From: Sulfuriferula nivalis
GTDB lineage: Bacteria; Pseudomonadota; Gammaproteobacteria; Burkholderiales; Sulfuriferulaceae
DNA: 64,000 nucleotides
Assembly (NCBI RefSeq): GCF_009937995.1
Contig: NZ_AP021881.1
Location: forward strand, 806,001-870,000
Reading direction: 5' to 3'
Part shown: piece after piece, positions 18,775 through 25,626 of the stretch
Layout of the letters: every line of letters starts with the position of its first letter
Position numbering within the stretch: the first letter of the stretch is position 1
Notes under the pieces: model-generated
The model's database searches: none
Seen by the model: the letters and a program-made list of their open reading frames with translations, nothing else
What the model was told of the DNA's origin: nothing
Position numbers and translations under genes: made by a program

Positions 18775-20043
18775 TTATTTCAGTTTTTTGATGCCTAATG
18801 CACTCAACATGTATTTTTCATATAACGGCTCTGATGTGCCGTTTTTCATTTTGCGGATGAAATATTTTTCAAACGCGATTTTGGCTAAGTGTACCCATTT
18901 ACCTTCTTTGAACCAGTTGACATTGCGTGGTGGTATTTGCGGTAATGCCACAAATGCTGCGCCGCTATCGCCAAAGTCTGCCAGACAGATTGCATTCCAG
19001 GTTGCTTTCTCCGTAGGTTCTTCACCATCTAACAGGCTGCGTATGTTATGCGCGGTAGCCGTGACCATACTTTCTATCATGTAGCCCGTTTTTGGCGTGC
19101 CTGTCGGCACTGGTGTAACTTCTACCGGTGGTATTGCTACGCAAACACCAACTGAGAATATGTTTTTATATTTAGGATTGCGCTGGTAAGGATCAGCAAC
19201 AATGAAGCCGCGTGGATTGGTTAATCCTTCAATCCCGAATACCGCATCTATACCTTTAAATGCAGGCAGCATCATCGAATAGTTAAATGGCAGTTCATGT
19301 TCTTTTTTCACAGTACCATCATCGTTGTGTTCGGTGACAAACATTTTGCCCGCTTCAACTTTGGTGACTTTGGCGTTGCATATCCACTTGATATGACGGT
19401 CACGCATACTGGATTCCAAGATACCTTTGGAATCGCCGACGCCACCGAGACCAAGATGACCTATGTAGGGTTCAGCAGTAACAAAAGTCATGGGGACTTT
19501 GTCACGAACTTTACGTTTACGTAAATCAGTTTCCATGATGAATGCATACTCATAAGCCGGGCCATAACAGGATGCACCTTGTACTGCGCCTACAACAATG
19601 GGGCCAGGGTTGGCACAGAATGCATCCCACTCATTACCTGATTTCGTTGCATGATCAACATGGCAGATGGAGTGAGTATGTCCATCAGGTCCCAAGCCTG
19701 GAATTTCATCAAATGCAAGTTTGGGTCCGGTGGCAATAATCAGGTAGTCATAGTTAACAATGTCACCGTTAGCTAATGCAATCTGGTTCTGTTCTGGATG
19801 TAATTTCGTCGCGCCATGAGGAATAAAGTTGATTCCCTTTTTGGCTAAGTACGGCGCAATCGGAAAGGTGATGTCACTGCGATCACGCCAGTTCACACCC
19901 ACCCATGGATTGGATGGCGTGAATTGGAAGGTGTCTGAGTTGGAAATAACAGTGACGGTATCTTCTTTGCGCGCAAGTTCTTTCATTTCATAGGCCATGG
20001 GCATACCGCCTATACCTGCGCCTAAAATTACAATATGTGCCAT
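18775..20043 (-). CDS. sqr: Sulfide:quinone oxidoreductase (Acidithiobacillus type)
   Basis: 422 residues from ATG 20043, which has AAGGAGCG in front; an upstream in-frame ATG at 20160 gives a nonsense leader covering the promoter. The FAD loop is HIVILGAGIGGMPMAYEMK. The three redox cysteines of SQR are present: Cys127 (SICHVDHA), Cys159 (GASCYGPAYEY) and Cys353 (WNAICLADFGD). PVPTGTPKTGYMIE and FEKYFIRKMKNG near the C-terminus match the membrane-associated SQR of acidithiobacilli. It oxidises sulfide to polysulfide or sulfane sulfur and reduces quinone at the inner membrane. Divergent from it is a sigma-54 activator; a -24/-12 promoter and palindromic upstream sites lie between. Confidence 0.95.
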   Translation of the reverse strand: MAHIVILGAGIGGMPMAYEMKELARKEDTVTVISNSDTFQFTPSNPWVGVNWRDRSDITFPIAPYLAKKGINFIPHGATKLHPEQNQIALANGDIVNYDYLIIATGPKLAFDEIPGLGPDGHTHSICHVDHATKSGNEWDAFCANPGPIVVGAVQGASCYGPAYEYAFIMETDLRKRKVRDKVPMTFVTAEPYIGHLGLGGVGDSKGILESSMRDRHIKWICNAKVTKVEAGKMFVTEHNDDGTVKKEHELPFNYSMMLPAFKGIDAVFGIEGLTNPRGFIVADPYQRNPKYKNIFSVGVCVAIPPVEVTPVPTGTPKTGYMIESMVTATAHNIRSLLDGEEPTEKATWNAICLADFGDSGAAFVALPQIPPRNVNWFKEGKWVHLAKIAFEKYFIRKMKNGTSEPLYEKYMLSALGIKKLK

Positions 20044-20079
20044 GATGCGCTCCTTGTTGTGATTAATATGATTCTTATT

Positions 20080-20095
20080 AGCAGCTTCTGTGCCA
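20080..20095 (-). promoter_or_regulatory. Sigma-54 (-24/-12) promoter of sqr
   Basis: On the minus strand TGGCACAGAAGCTGCT, with GG and GC separated by exactly ten bases, lies 37 bases upstream of the sqr ATG. It matches the TGGCACG-N4-TTGCW consensus closely. Confidence 0.8.
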
Positions 20096-20154
20096 GAATT
20101 TATATCCATGTTTTTAAAGGAATATTTAAAACTATTCTCGTGGATACTGATATT

Positions 20155-20206
20155 TGTCATGACATAATGGCGGGTGTCATATTATGATGTGGAGATTGTC
20201 ATGACA
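20155..20206. promoter_or_regulatory. Two TGTCATGACA palindromes, probable activator binding sites
   Basis: Perfect 10-base palindromes at 20155-20164 and 20197-20206, centre to centre 42 bases (four helical turns). A degenerate TGTCATATTATGA lies between them. They lie 60-125 bases upstream of the sqr sigma-54 promoter and just before the activator gene, so they would serve both sqr activation and control of the activator gene. Confidence 0.7.
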
Positions 20207-20225: not shown

Positions 20226-21587
20226 GTGGACACTAAATTAAGCCCGGAGTTACTTTCTTTGCTGGAGGTACAATCTGCACCTTTCGTGCTGATTGATGAG
20301 CAATATCAGATAGTGGGTGCCAATCAGGCTTATTGTGAAAATTATGGTATCTCGCAGCAGGAAATAGTTGGCAAGCATTGCTATGAAGTCTCGCATCGTT
20401 CGGATGTGCCCTGTCACCAACATGGTGAAGATTGTCCTCATCAGGCGGTATTCAGTACTGCCAAGCAGCATGAGGTGATACATACTCATTTTGATCGTCA
20501 TCATCGACCTGAATATGCTCGTATCAAAGGACATCCGATTATGGGTGAGGTGGGCGTGCGCTATCTGGGTGAATTGATCGTGCCTATCGCTAATCCTGAT
20601 GAACTTAATTGTGACGAGATGCGCATGGTAGGGCATTCACCTGCATTTTTGCATTGTGTGGAAATGCTGGCGCGCGTGGCAGAGTCTGAAGCGTCAGTAT
20701 TGCTGCTGGGTGAGAGCGGTGTTGGCAAGGAGCTGGCAGCGCAATATTTGCATAAACGCTCTAGCCGGCACGATAAGCCATTTGTGGCGATCAATTGTGC
20801 AGCGATTACAGAAACCATGTTTGAGGACGAGCTGTTTGGCCATGAGCGTGGTGCTTTTACCGGCTGTATCGGACGCAAGCAAGGTTTGTTTGAATTAGCG
20901 CATGGCGGTACCTTATTTCTGGATGAGGCAGGTGAAATACCGTTAACCATGCAGGCCAAGTTATTGCGAGTGCTGGAGAGCGGTGAGTATCGGCGCATGG
21001 GCGGTACGGAAACACTAACAGCAGATGTGCGCATCGTTGCCGCAACCAATCGTAATCTGCTGGATATGGCGGAGACGGGGCAATATCGTCTGGATTTATA
21101 TTATCGTATTGCTGGAATAGATTTACGGTTACCCAGCTTGCGTGAGCGTCGTATAGATATTCCTGCATTGGCTGAAACCATGCTGAAACGCATTACCGAA
21201 GCCGGTGCGCCGCGTTGCAAGCTGACTGACAGAGCGCTGGATAAGCTGATGGCGTATGATTTTCCTGGCAACGTGCGTGAGTTGCGGAATATTCTGTTGC
21301 GTGCAGTGGCGATATGCAATAACAGCGTAATAGATGCGGAACAAATTGTGCTGGGTAGTTCATTGAATAACGCGCCGCAAATTGATGCTAGTCCCGTATT
21401 GCCCAACTCCGGTACGGTTCAGGAAATGCAGAAAGTGGTGGCTGGTATTCCTATTACCCAACTGGAAGCAGACTATATCGCTGAGTTACTAAAAATCCAC
21501 CATGGACACAGGCGTAACGTGGCTGATATATTGGGGATGAGCGAGCGTACTTTATATCGCAAATTAAAACAGTATGGCTTGTCCTAG
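20226..21587 (+). CDS. Sigma-54-dependent transcriptional activator with PAS sensor
   Basis: 453 residues starting at GTG 20226 after GGGAGG. Residues ~12-120 form a PAS domain (LIDEQYQIVGANQAYCENYG). It has an unusual Cys/His-rich segment, VPCHQHGEDCPHQAVF (Cys63, Cys70), which could sense redox state, metal or persulfide. The AAA+ domain has Walker A GESGVGKE (162-169), GAFTG (209-213, the sigma-54 contact loop) and TLFLDEAGEIP. The C-terminal Fis-type HTH includes RRNVADILGMSERTLYRKLK. It most likely activates the divergent sqr promoter in response to sulfide. It is followed seven bases later by a three-gene unit that may belong to the same response. Confidence 0.92.
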   Translation: MDTKLSPELLSLLEVQSAPFVLIDEQYQIVGANQAYCENYGISQQEIVGKHCYEVSHRSDVPCHQHGEDCPHQAVFSTAKQHEVIHTHFDRHHRPEYARIKGHPIMGEVGVRYLGELIVPIANPDELNCDEMRMVGHSPAFLHCVEMLARVAESEASVLLLGESGVGKELAAQYLHKRSSRHDKPFVAINCAAITETMFEDELFGHERGAFTGCIGRKQGLFELAHGGTLFLDEAGEIPLTMQAKLLRVLESGEYRRMGGTETLTADVRIVAATNRNLLDMAETGQYRLDLYYRIAGIDLRLPSLRERRIDIPALAETMLKRITEAGAPRCKLTDRALDKLMAYDFPGNVRELRNILLRAVAICNNSVIDAEQIVLGSSLNNAPQIDASPVLPNSGTVQEMQKVVAGIPITQLEADYIAELLKIHHGHRRNVADILGMSERTLYRKLKQYGLS

Positions 21588-21593
21588 GAGTCG

Positions 21594-23033
21594 GTGTTGT
21601 CAAGTTTAGATCCACATAATAAAGAAGAGTGGCTGGCGTTGCGTCAGCAAGGTCATCGTATGCTCGATGACATGTTTGATTACCTGGAAAATTTACGTGA
21701 GCGCCCCGTGTGGCAGCCTGCGCCTGATGCTGTGCGTCATGAGTTTGATGCGGATATGCCCATAGAGGGACAGGATTTGGCGGTAGTTCACGATACCTTC
21801 ATGCAGGCGATATTGCCTTATGCTATTGGCAACGCGCATCCGGGTTTTATGGGTTGGGTGCATGGCGCGGGTACACCAGTGGGCATGCTGGCAGAAATGC
21901 TGGCGGCAGGGTTGAACGCGAATGTGGGTGGACGTAATCAGGTTCCTGTGCTGGTTGAACAGCAGATATTGCACTGGGTGCGGGATTTGTTTGGCTTCCC
22001 CGAAACAGCCAGTGGTCTATTCGTGACCGGTACGTCGATGGCGAATTTTATTGCTGTGCTGGTGGCGCGGAAAACGGCATTGGGTGCGGCAGTGCGGAAT
22101 GTGGGTGTGAATCAGGTGCAGCAGCGTTTGGTAGCTTACACCTCGGCGGGAGCGCATGGCTGCATTGCCCAAGCAATGGATTTATCCGGGCTGGGCATAG
22201 ATGCGTTGCGTATCATTCCGCTGAACGCCGAGTTCTCTATGGATGTGGCGAAATTGCAAACTGCGATTGCTGAAGATTTGGCGCAAGGCTATGTGCCGTT
22301 CATGCTGATCGGTACTGCGGGTTCTGTTGATGTCGGCGCAATAGATGATTTGCCTGTGCTGGCAGATGTCGCGCAGCAACACCAGCTTTGGTTCCATATC
22401 GATGGCGCCTATGGTGCGCTGGCGATGTTGTCGCCGGGCTTGCGGCCGCGTTTACAGGGATTGGAGCGCGCTGATTCAGTGGCGTTCGATTTTCATAAGT
22501 GGGGGCAAGTGCCTTACGATGCCGGCTTTGTCATCGTGCGTGATGGTACGCAGCATTATGAGACGTTTGCTACTCCCGCAGCTTATTTACGTCGTGAAGC
22601 CTGTGGTATGGCGGCTGGCTCGCCGTGGCCGTGTGATTACGGTCCTGATTTATCGCGAGGATTTCGCGCACTAAAAACATGGTTTACGTTGCAAGTGTAT
22701 GGTGCCGATAAGATCGGCGCCAGTATTGCCTATACCTGTGAGCTGGCGCAGTATCTGCAACAGCTTATTAAGGCGCAGCCACAATTGATTCTGGCAGCGC
22801 CCGTGTCATTGAATGTCGTGTGTTTTCGTTATGATGCCAGTGATGCTATCAATGCTGAGATAGTGACCCAATTACAATTAGCTGGTCATGTAGCCCCTTC
22901 CACGACTACTATCAATGGCAAATTGGTCATACGTGCTGCGCTGGTAAATCATCGGGCAGCGCAGCAAGATATGGATGCACTGGTTGCGGGTGTATTGAAA
23001 TTCGGCGCGGAATTAACAGGAGCTGGTGTATGA
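21594..23033 (+). CDS. PLP-dependent decarboxylase, group II family
   Basis: 479 residues from GTG 21594 with AGGAG in front. It has the glutamate/aromatic amino-acid decarboxylase fold: HPGFMGWVHGAG near residue 83, the cofactor strand GLFVTGTSMANFIAVLVARK, HIDGAYGALAML (Asp that binds the PLP nitrogen) and DFHKWGQVPYDAGFVIV with the Schiff-base Lys. The substrate amino acid is unknown; the substrate-side sequences do not match the well-known Glu, Asp or aromatic enzymes that I can recall. It is the first of three genes joined by 4-base overlaps behind the sigma-54 activator, with an ATP-grasp gene next. The natural reading is that its amine product feeds the ATP-grasp protein; this is inference. 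Confidence 0.85.
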   Translation: MLSSLDPHNKEEWLALRQQGHRMLDDMFDYLENLRERPVWQPAPDAVRHEFDADMPIEGQDLAVVHDTFMQAILPYAIGNAHPGFMGWVHGAGTPVGMLAEMLAAGLNANVGGRNQVPVLVEQQILHWVRDLFGFPETASGLFVTGTSMANFIAVLVARKTALGAAVRNVGVNQVQQRLVAYTSAGAHGCIAQAMDLSGLGIDALRIIPLNAEFSMDVAKLQTAIAEDLAQGYVPFMLIGTAGSVDVGAIDDLPVLADVAQQHQLWFHIDGAYGALAMLSPGLRPRLQGLERADSVAFDFHKWGQVPYDAGFVIVRDGTQHYETFATPAAYLRREACGMAAGSPWPCDYGPDLSRGFRALKTWFTLQVYGADKIGASIAYTCELAQYLQQLIKAQPQLILAAPVSLNVVCFRYDASDAINAEIVTQLQLAGHVAPSTTTINGKLVIRAALVNHRAAQQDMDALVAGVLKFGAELTGAGV

Positions 23034-24268
23034 CACGAAATTGGCATGCGTTGATGCAGGTGTATGAATCTGACCCACCCAAGTTGATTGGATTGCCGAC
23101 GCTGATGCGGATGGCGTTACATGGTGAAGACTTGACGCCGCTGGGCACAGATCTGCTAGCCTATGTTGCGGAATATCCTCAGGCAGCACATGCCTTGATG
23201 GATATGGCTACGTTATTTCAGTTGATGCATAACCCCGAGATGGGGCTGATGGCGCAAGCAGAAGCATTGAAAATACAACAGTTATACCAAGTTCAGGATA
23301 AGGCGGGTGACACACCGCTGCGCTTGTTGGTGATGATGGGGCCTGGCGATTTGATGTCGAATACACCGGTGGAGTTTCTGGTGGCCGACGAGAATGTCGA
23401 ACTTAGTCTGTTGTATGTTGATACCAGTCTGCCCCTGCCTGAATGGGTGCCTGAGCACGATGTACTGTTTGTGGCTGTGGGTGAATCTGATAAAAATCAG
23501 GCATTGCTGGCATTTATCGACAGCTTTATCGGCATCTGGCCACGCCCGGTGCTGAACTTGCCTGCTGAAATTGCGGCTGTTGCCCGTGATCAAGTCAGTG
23601 CGGCGCTGCAATACGAGCCCAACATTGTTATGCCACAAACAGTGCGTGTGACCAGAGCGCAGTTGATGGATTTGGCGGCAGGCGTTCTGTCCCTGTCGGA
23701 ATGGGTTGATGCGCTTGATTATCCTGTGATAGTTCGGCCGGTTGACTCCCATGCGGGGAGAGGGCTGGCGCGGATAACTACGGGTGATGAACTTGCCAAA
23801 TATTTACTTGAACAGGCCGGTGATGATTTTTATCTGGCAAAGTTTGTTGATTACAGCGATGCAGCAGGGCGATATAGAAAATATCGCATTGTACTGATGC
23901 GTGGAAAACCTTACTTGTGTCATCTGGCGATTTCCAAGCATTGGATGGTGCATTATCTGAATGCGGAGATGACAGAAAATGCGGTAAATCGTGATGAAGA
24001 AGCGCAGGCAATGGCAAAGTTCGATGATGACTTTGCCGTGCGTCATGCACAAGCGCTAAGTGCGATTGCGGCGGCTACGGGGCTGGATTATGTCGGTATA
24101 GATTGCGCAGAAACAGCGCAAGGTGAACTTTTGATTTTTGAAATAGATAGCAATATGGTGGTGCATGCCATGGATGATGTGGAGATGTTTCCTTACAAAC
24201 AGCCGCACATGCATAAAGTATTCCGGGCGTTCTATGATTTATTAGTCACTGCGAGTAGCGTGCATTGA
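23030..24268 (+). CDS. ATP-grasp family protein with N-terminal helical (TPR-like) region
   Basis: 412 residues; the ATG overlaps the decarboxylase stop. Residues ~25-90 are helical and TPR-like (LLAYVAEYPQAAHALMDMAT, LMAQAEALKIQQLYQ). The middle (100-200) resembles a pre-ATP-grasp domain. The C-terminal ATP-grasp part has YPVIVRPVDSHAGRGLA (~residue 235, nucleotide loop), FYLAKFVDYSD, KYRIVLMRGKPYLCH and the Mg-binding FEIDSNMVVHAMDD near the end. Such enzymes join a carboxylate to an amine or thiol using ATP. Substrates are unknown. Genomic coupling to a decarboxylase and a second PLP protein suggests a small-molecule or peptide biosynthesis step. Confidence 0.8.
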   Translation: MTRNWHALMQVYESDPPKLIGLPTLMRMALHGEDLTPLGTDLLAYVAEYPQAAHALMDMATLFQLMHNPEMGLMAQAEALKIQQLYQVQDKAGDTPLRLLVMMGPGDLMSNTPVEFLVADENVELSLLYVDTSLPLPEWVPEHDVLFVAVGESDKNQALLAFIDSFIGIWPRPVLNLPAEIAAVARDQVSAALQYEPNIVMPQTVRVTRAQLMDLAAGVLSLSEWVDALDYPVIVRPVDSHAGRGLARITTGDELAKYLLEQAGDDFYLAKFVDYSDAAGRYRKYRIVLMRGKPYLCHLAISKHWMVHYLNAEMTENAVNRDEEAQAMAKFDDDFAVRHAQALSAIAAATGLDYVGIDCAETAQGELLIFEIDSNMVVHAMDDVEMFPYKQPHMHKVFRAFYDLLVTASSVH

Positions 24269-25626
24269 AATTAACAACATCGCAATGGCTGGCCGCAGGT
24301 GGTGATAGGCGTATCGTACCCGACCCCGTAACAGGGCGGAATCAATATGGCTGTACAGTGCAGCCGGATGGTAATTTAATCGCCTTGGGTTCGTCTACCG
24401 CCTCGGTGATTTCTGCAGATGCATGGGATGAAGTCAATCGGTTGGCCAATCAGATCAGTGATGAGCAGGCGTGGAACGACATGCGTCAGCAGTTGCGTAA
24501 TTTTGTTGGTGTGAATGATGATGTAGATGTGGTTTTTGCGGCTTCAGGTACGGATGCACATCATATCGTCGCGCAATATGTACAGGCCGTGAATCAGCAA
24601 GTATTGGCAACCATCATGGTTGCGCCAGAAGAAACTGGCAGTGGTGTGGCAGCAGCGTTAGTACATGACCGTCTGTTACTTGCGACCGTAGCGTTGCGTG
24701 AACAAAATGGTCATCCACGTGACAGTGCATTGATTGATGCTGATATAGACGCGGCAGCATCTGCCGCCATTGCCCAGCAGCAGCACGTATTGATCAATCT
24801 GATTGATGTGTCAAAAACGGGCATGATGGCGCCCAGCCTTGCGTGTGTTGCCAGCTTGCAAGCGCGATATCCTGAACAGATTACTGTGTTGGTCGATGCC
24901 AGCCAATTCCGATTAGCTCCTGCGACGCTGCAATCTTATTTGCAAAAAGACTACGTGGTAGTGGTGACGGGGTCTAAATTCATCACTGGCCCCTGTTTTT
25001 CTGGTGCGATATTGATTCCGCAAAATGTTGCACAGCAGTGGCAACGTTTTCCAGTTCCTGTTGGTTTACAGGCGACATCACATCCGCTCGATTGGCCGCG
25101 AGGATTTGATGTCAGTGGGCTTAATCAGCCAGCAAGTAATCATGGATTGTATTTGCGCTGGCGAGCAGCATTGTATGAAATGCATGCTTTTGCTAAGTTG
25201 GATAGCGGTGAAGTGCTAGCGTTTTTTGCTAATTTTTCGGCAGCAATACACAGCAAGCTTGTTCAGCATGCTGAATTTGAATTGTTGGCTGTGCCTAAAC
25301 TGCAAAGAGATTGTGCAGCATGGGATAGTGAGCAAACTATCTTATCATTTGTACTTTATCGTGATGCGCAGCCATTGACGCAAGCTCAAACTCTATCCAT
25401 TTATAAGCAATTATCGGAAACTTGCTCAAGTGGATTACGGTTTCAGCTTGGTCAGCCCGTTCCCTGTGGCTTACGAGATGATGTTGCAGTCAGTGCATTA
25501 CGCATCAGTGCCAGCGCTCGCCTGGCTGTGGCTGCATTAGCCTCCGATGGATTGGGGCGAGATGCGGTCATAAGCTGGGCAATGCTGGCACTGGATGAGA
25601 TTATAAAACTGGTAAATAACTCCTGA
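24265..25626 (+). CDS. PLP-dependent fold-type I protein, class V aminotransferase-like
   Basis: 453 residues from TTG 24265, overlapping the ATP-grasp stop. Pattern of the aminotransferase class V/cysteine desulfurase superfamily: VVFAASGTDAHHIVAQYV (~residue 91), LINLIDVSKTGMMAPS (~180), the PLP-pyridine Asp in ITVLVDASQFRLAP (~210) and the Schiff-base Lys in VVVVTGSKFITGPCFSGAIL (~240). There is no clear catalytic-loop Cys as in IscS. Reaction unknown; a lyase, desulfurase or transaminase are all possible. It ends directly against the convergent amtB stop with no spacer. It completes a four-gene unit with the sigma-54 activator, decarboxylase and ATP-grasp genes. Confidence 0.75.
   Translation: MKLTTSQWLAAGGDRRIVPDPVTGRNQYGCTVQPDGNLIALGSSTASVISADAWDEVNRLANQISDEQAWNDMRQQLRNFVGVNDDVDVVFAASGTDAHHIVAQYVQAVNQQVLATIMVAPEETGSGVAAALVHDRLLLATVALREQNGHPRDSALIDADIDAAASAAIAQQQHVLINLIDVSKTGMMAPSLACVASLQARYPEQITVLVDASQFRLAPATLQSYLQKDYVVVVTGSKFITGPCFSGAILIPQNVAQQWQRFPVPVGLQATSHPLDWPRGFDVSGLNQPASNHGLYLRWRAALYEMHAFAKLDSGEVLAFFANFSAAIHSKLVQHAEFELLAVPKLQRDCAAWDSEQTILSFVLYRDAQPLTQAQTLSIYKQLSETCSSGLRFQLGQPVPCGLRDDVAVSALRISASARLAVAALASDGLGRDAVISWAMLALDEIIKLVNNS

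Follow-up and report, generated by a model that had tools for sequence, protein, structure and literature searches.

Three overlapping genes in a 64,000-nucleotide stretch of Sulfuriferula nivalis DNA (contig NZ_AP021881.1, positions 806,001 to 870,000; the window) code for a decarboxylase dependent on pyridoxal 5'-phosphate (PLP), an ATP-grasp ligase and a second PLP enzyme, here called DC, AG and PT. They form one conserved unit. In several lineages the trio is encoded inside or beside different flagellar clusters, and in a sample of the order nearly every genome that carries it has a flagellin-family gene. The trio is very likely associated with the flagellum. It probably makes or attaches a chemical decoration of the swimming apparatus and probably does not serve sulfide metabolism, the role suggested by its neighbours in the window, a regulator and an sqr-like gene.

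To describe the unit across genomes, we scanned a PT profile against one genome per species and kept the best 80 of 244 relatives. Close relatives are over-represented among these 80 named loci, from which the records nearest to the window's own genome may be missing. They come from Gallionella, Sulfuriferula, Sulfuricella, Methylobacter, Crenothrix, Undibacterium, Janthinobacterium, Caulobacteraceae, Geobacter and a Fibrobacteria bin. In 69 of the 80 the genes run DC, AG, PT along a single strand, which argues that the trio is not a chance arrangement. PT is inverted beside AG-DC in three loci, and eight have another order or a missing member. In the window the trio spans 21594-25626 with four-base overlaps at both junctions (ATGA and TTGA), the overlapping operon that had been described from the sequence. 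A single-sequence AG scan of genome contigs found nothing. The earlier note on this DNA knew of no named pathway with these three enzymes, and none was found described in the open-licence PMC literature, though a prior mention is possible.

Trio apart, the commonest clusters of flanking open reading frames (ORFs) are flagellar. Pfam confirms representatives as FlaG, FlgE, FlgG type, MotA, MotB, FlgA and FlgI, and further ones as FliD, FlgD, FlgN, FlgM, FliC, FliS and YcgR. We searched the flanks with 30 flagellar queries: 16 are named by a specific Pfam match (FlgB as a rod protein only), three (FliA, FliI and FlhF) had generic family matches, and the names of the other 11 are putative. A flagellar gene is present in the flanks of 42 of the 80 named loci (38 with the first 18 queries) and of none of 37 control regions, whose coordinates were hand-picked and not random draws. 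For long loci the count is 32 of 59, compared with the first 17 controls (Fisher p = 3.3e-5). In 24 of the 42 positive loci, fewer than 200 bases separate the trio from the closest flagellar match. Flagellar flanks also occur at 5 of 15 loci from Sulfuriferula and its kin and at 7 of 20 order-sampled loci. The order sample has 27 PT carriers outside the genus; 19 of these, together with the DC locus of genome G009, make up the 20 loci, of which 18 have all three genes. The locus groups overlap, as several of the 15 and at least four of the 20 are contigs also in the 80.

The flagellar setting itself varies. The trio lies between flgN/flgM and flgA, ahead of a GGDEF gene followed by fliC, flaG and fliD, or with fliF, fliG and fliI; it adjoins fliS/fliD in Methylobacter and is found with flaG in Undibacterium. 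We placed the flagellar label on a tree of the trio with 89 rows, 87 of them different. Thirteen loci were omitted, being duplicates or taken to be such (for L106 and L174 without a check), as were loci without long enough matches to all three genes. The label requires at least 14 changes, 10 of them forced by starred branches, a count inflated by short contigs scored as negative. With settings that differ by lineage and this number of changes, the trio does not share one inherited neighbourhood.

We also examined how often the trio and flagellin-family genes are encoded together. Among 300 genomes of the order, 36 carry PT, and 35 of these match PF00669, a flagellin family that also catches the hook protein FlgL; of the 264 without PT, 169 match it (Fisher p = 1.2e-5, which is optimistic as the species are related). 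Counted by genus, the match is present in 15 of 15 PT-positive and 86 of 124 PT-negative genera (p = 0.011). In 61 close relatives, largely inside the order sample, the corresponding numbers are 19 of 19 and 25 of 42. A class-level sample of 370 genomes, the window's own included, had four PT carriers, too few for a test, and all four match PF00669. The host's own flagellin is just 241 amino acids long with N- and C-terminal helical parts (L158:8729-9454).

The earlier note had read the trio as a small-molecule or modified-peptide pathway, perhaps for a thiol, sulfur carrier or osmolyte, co-induced with sulfide oxidation, and had suggested a search for co-occurrence with sqr. A regulator with FisR-like cysteines adjoins the trio in the window and in six relatives of its genus, sqr being part of the same neighbourhood, as that reading would have it. 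However, regulator and sqr are beside the trio in only two of the 80 named loci, both Sulfuriferula. They are also retained where trio and flagella are missing. Of 60 relatives, G017 encodes the regulator most like that of the window (92% across the sensor part), and this genome keeps HisA, HisF, TatC, the ammonium transporter, the regulator and sqr colinear at 86-96% identity. In place of the trio are 42 bases between regulator and transporter with a hairpin, seen by eye. No AG, PT or DC match, no PF00669 match and no FlgI were found in G017; the data fit loss and non-gain of the trio equally. G016, which is 75% complete, agrees: sqr and regulator are kept and neither trio, PF00669 nor FlgI was found. 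In the flagellate G003 the regulator abuts the ammonium transporter; the trio is at another site, ahead of a GGDEF gene and fliC. G001 and G008 have regulator and sqr without the trio beside them, and the trio sits in their fliC-flaG-fliD cluster. These five genomes indicate that sqr and regulator can do without the trio and that the trio goes with flagella. On neighbourhoods and loss pattern we reject a sulfide pathway as the general function, and we consider a sulfur-linked pathway induced with sqr very improbable. The initial observation, the enzyme classes and the operon stand; the sulfide interpretation is not supported and does not generalize. Co-induction with sulfide oxidation is possible inside Sulfuriferula. 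The sqr link is real in that genus and was not seen elsewhere, a caution against reading function from a single neighbourhood.

The enzyme classes first assigned by eye were upheld (Table 1). Alignments held the window plus 32 of 55 DC candidates, 44 of 60 AG candidates (one a paralogue, L057:6004-7242) and 46 of 64 PT candidates. DC scores 226.4 bits against PF00282 (cut-off 27), and both the Schiff-base Lys302 of DFHKW and His188 are present in 33 of 33 rows. Its closest solved relative by profile comparison is the R. gnavus tryptophan decarboxylase (4obu/4obv, 1.5e-92). The matches of AG to RimK-type ligases and of PT to class V aminotransferases are weak and under curated cut-offs. AG has the ATP-grasp fold and a Mg-binding Glu of the RimK/LysX type. 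Of the Mg site that had been read in FEIDSNMV, Glu371 is present in 45 of 45 rows, Asp373 in 44 of 45 and Asn375 in just 11 of 45. AG scores 29.2 bits against TIGR00768, under its curated 143.4, and PF08443 is matched in just one of 45 members, at 0.0039. By sequence, AG is a fold relative of the RimK/LysX ligases, placed outside the curated family. PT has the class V aminotransferase fold with Lys238 of TGSKFITG in 47 of 47 rows, an Asp and a carboxylate Arg as its putative PLP residues. The window's PT scores 20.9 bits against PF00266 (cut-off 21.5), three of 47 members match it at 0.01, and the PT profile found nothing among PDB sequences at 0.1. A defence or phage origin was rejected, as the three proteins have no PADLOC family at 0.001 and no PHROG match. 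When viral contigs of IMG/VR were scanned with the AG profile, 211 pattern stretches came up and none was a relative.

Table 1. Features of the trio operon and its upstream region, in window coordinates. HTH, helix-turn-helix; TPR, tetratricopeptide repeat; aa, amino acids.
Feature	Position	Strand	Basis
sqr-like flavoprotein, divergent neighbour	18775..20160	-	PF07992; start probably inner ATG near 20043
sigma-54 -24/-12 element TGGCAC-N6-TGC, reads towards sqr	20081..20095	-	4 in window, 1.28 expected
TGTCATGACA palindrome, probable activator site	20155..20164	.	motif count
sigma-70-like promoter candidate, activator-trio operon	20159..20188	+	weak consensus; 6 sites found, 3.3 expected
TGTCATGACA palindrome, probable activator site	20197..20206	.	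motif count
FisR-like PAS/sigma-54 activator	20226..21587	+	PF00158, PAS, Fis-type HTH
DC, group II PLP-dependent decarboxylase	21594..23033	+	479 aa; PF00282 6.2e-67
AG, RimK/LysX-fold ATP-grasp ligase, ~95-residue helical TPR-like N-terminus	23030..24268	+	412 aa
PT, fold type I, class V-like PLP enzyme	24265..25626	+	453 aa

The target and the product of the trio we infer as follows. DC would decarboxylate an amino acid to an amine, and PT would make or convert an amino-acid partner. AG would activate a carboxylate with ATP and form an amide on a flagellar protein, with its TPR-like part as the docking site. A relocating flagellum-associated cassette in which AG carries out such protein-directed amide ligation is the best reading, which we hold tentatively. 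Flagellin before export would be the first candidate; that it is the target is conceivable, though we would not yet favour it. In the window's clade, with the FisR-like activator ahead of the cassette, expression may follow the sulfane-sulfur state. The fullest form of this proposal would be a new flagellar chemistry, in which a TPR-fronted RimK/LysX-type amidoligase forms an amide between flagellin, or a different axial protein, and an amine or amino acid made by the PLP enzymes, the cassette having moved repeatedly among proteobacterial flagellar clusters and, in Sulfuriferula, come under a sulfane-sulfur regulator coupling flagellar chemistry to sulfide. In that entirety it is speculative and somewhat unlikely. 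A module carried by iron- and sulfur-oxidizers (Gallionella, Sulfuriferula), methanotrophs (Methylobacter, Crenothrix) and others is now aimed at a concrete target, the flagellum. If AG does modify flagellin, flagellin chemistry extends past glycosylation and methylation; if it does not, a motility-linked metabolite awaits discovery.

Several observations weigh against a flagellar modification. No flagellar gene was found near the trio at 38 of the 80 named, 13 of the 20 order-sampled and 10 of the 15 Sulfuriferula-and-kin loci, nor in the window and its clade. Most flagellated genomes lack the trio, as the 169 PT-negative genomes with a PF00669 match illustrate, and G002 is flagellated without PT or DC. 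For some carriers the PF00669 match may be FlgL, a marker of flagella other than flagellin. G195 has the trio with neither a PF00669 nor a FlgI match and looks like a real exception. Sigma-28-like sites with at most two mismatches lie upstream of DC in 7 of 89 regions, two of them good, compared with 2.9 in shuffles, a mild excess that leaves sigma-28 control unconvincing. The TPR-like part of AG is scarcely recognized by Pfam, and fold similarity of AG proves no substrate. G195 and the loci without flagellar neighbours aside, the trio lies beside flagellar genes and is limited to flagellates, the pattern expected of a flagellar-modification system.

In a serious rival reading the product is a small amide or dipeptide-like metabolite, such as a signal, chemoeffector or cofactor, for motile cells, AG joining the DC amine to a free carboxylate with no protein modified. 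Ligases of the AG fold such as GshB and Ddl produce small molecules, and the named and order-sampled loci away from flagellar genes also fit this explanation. In five of the loci examined, two of them from the same genome, a gene of the ABC-transporter ATPase type is no more than two genes away from the trio. We judge a motility-linked metabolite somewhat unlikely. A methylofuran (MfnA-MfnD) reading was considered and not retained.

The trio could also supply an amino-acid-type substituent of a flagellin glycan. Such a role is suggested for SfmE of Shewanella (PMC3765264, passages cited) and is given by annotation in C. difficile type B clusters (PMC5207246, passages cited). In the window's own genome the flagellin cluster has fliD, fliS, fliK and ycgR matches and then a glycosyltransferase and a methyltransferase gene. 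However, PF01973 (MptE/Maf-like) is matched in 11 genomes of the order sample, none of which is one of the 36 PT carriers, and a link to a Maf-type flagellin glycosyltransferase was rejected. In the recurrent neighbour clusters, inspected by eye without a Pfam scan or a search for nonulosonate synthases, no sugar-biosynthesis gene was recognized. We consider a glycan substituent improbable.

AG paralogues also exist outside the trio. The window's own genome encodes a second AG, 42% identical (L035:9283-10488, C1:1340360); an IS91-type transposase lies about 2 kb away, and the 19 kb region contains no flagellar match. In two Sulfuriferula genomes, L163 (G009) and G004:C53, the trio is split: DC is alone behind the regulator, and AG-PT with a second, divergent AG is on another contig. 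The paralogues L001:8941-11306 and L053:8038-10787 have as partner another class V aminotransferase, which in Paraburkholderia FT54 is annotated as serC; such pairs may be a two-gene version of the system. Large paralogues of 830-880 amino acids are encoded in the genus, for example L054:1188-3680, which has many TPRs, a SEC-C motif and the ligase domain towards the C-terminal side. Rhizobium tumorigenes has the order AG-PT-DC, and its AG (L002:8986-10698) carries an extra C-terminal part of about 150 residues without a Pfam match. Downstream of PT, two relatives encode an Xre/RES toxin-antitoxin-like pair before the ammonium transporter (L036:12206-13351 and L038:6333-7460, the latter assigned by clustering only), suggesting that this spot acquires extra genes.

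The activator ends six bases before DC (20226-21587 and 21594). It is the first gene of the operon in the window's clade and elsewhere is not part of the trio. As first described, it is a FisR-like sigma-54 regulator beside sqr: it has PAS, AAA and HTH parts and two Cys residues 11 positions apart, and palindromes lie upstream of its sigma-54 target. The Cys52/63/70 spacing is kept in seven of seven Sulfuriferula copies, aligned by eye. Two copies of TGTCATGACA lie between activator and sqr, with 0.12 expected per window and no shuffle of 100 having two, bearing out the palindromic sites reported to face sqr. Their starts are 42 bases apart in the window and 43-44 apart in four of six relatives with the same locus; of the other two, one has a single copy and one none. 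Sigma-54 elements like the window's were found in four of the six. The single intergenic one in the window points to sqr and none was found towards the regulator-trio operon, a further point against the sulfur-linked pathway. The first palindrome overlaps the sigma-70-like candidate for the operon, so sulfide induction of the trio is possible and is not indicated. The sqr-like flavoprotein scores 102 bits against the NCBIfam SQR model (SQR_III), whose cut-off is 525.

Of the known systems, RimK and LysX/ArgX are nearest to AG in fold. These ligases act on protein or carrier-protein carboxylates, and the structure entries 5zk6 and 3vpb are ligases with such partners. AG shares 11-20% identity with them, differs in its TPR-like N-terminus and reads HWMVHY at the place of HWITNTARGG in LysX. 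DC has near full-length homology to the group II and aromatic amino acid decarboxylases (4obu). FisR of Cupriavidus pinatubonensis is described as a sigma-54 activator of sulfide-oxidation genes (PMC9918477, passages cited), and its Cys53-Cys64 pair is reported to form a tetrasulfide link (PMC9495516, passages cited). The Cys52-Cys63 pair of the window activator has the same spacing, the comparison being with these positions and not with the FisR sequence itself (PMC9495516). Unlike FisR, the window activator heads an operon with the trio, and its binding and sensing are predicted. In the cited passages on Shewanella sfmABCDE, SfmE is a cytoplasmic ATP-grasp protein encoded in a motility operon, and without SfmE both the flagellin mass and spreading on soft agar are reduced (PMC3765264). 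It is an example of an ATP-grasp protein in flagellin modification. SfmE is of the ATP-grasp_4 type, however, and its partners are a NeuB-like protein, a thiamine pyrophosphate enzyme, a reductase and a methyltransferase, with no decarboxylase or aminotransferase mentioned in those passages. In Caulobacter the TPR front end of FlmG is reported to bind flagellins (PMC7591256, passages cited). FlmG and AG both have a TPR or TPR-like part ahead of the catalytic part, which in FlmG is a glycosyltransferase behind about 310 TPR residues, compared with about 95 at the front of AG (PMC7591256). With protein ligases nearest to AG, the TPR part of FlmG and the precedent of SfmE, AG may ligate the DC/PT product to a flagellar protein as an amide.
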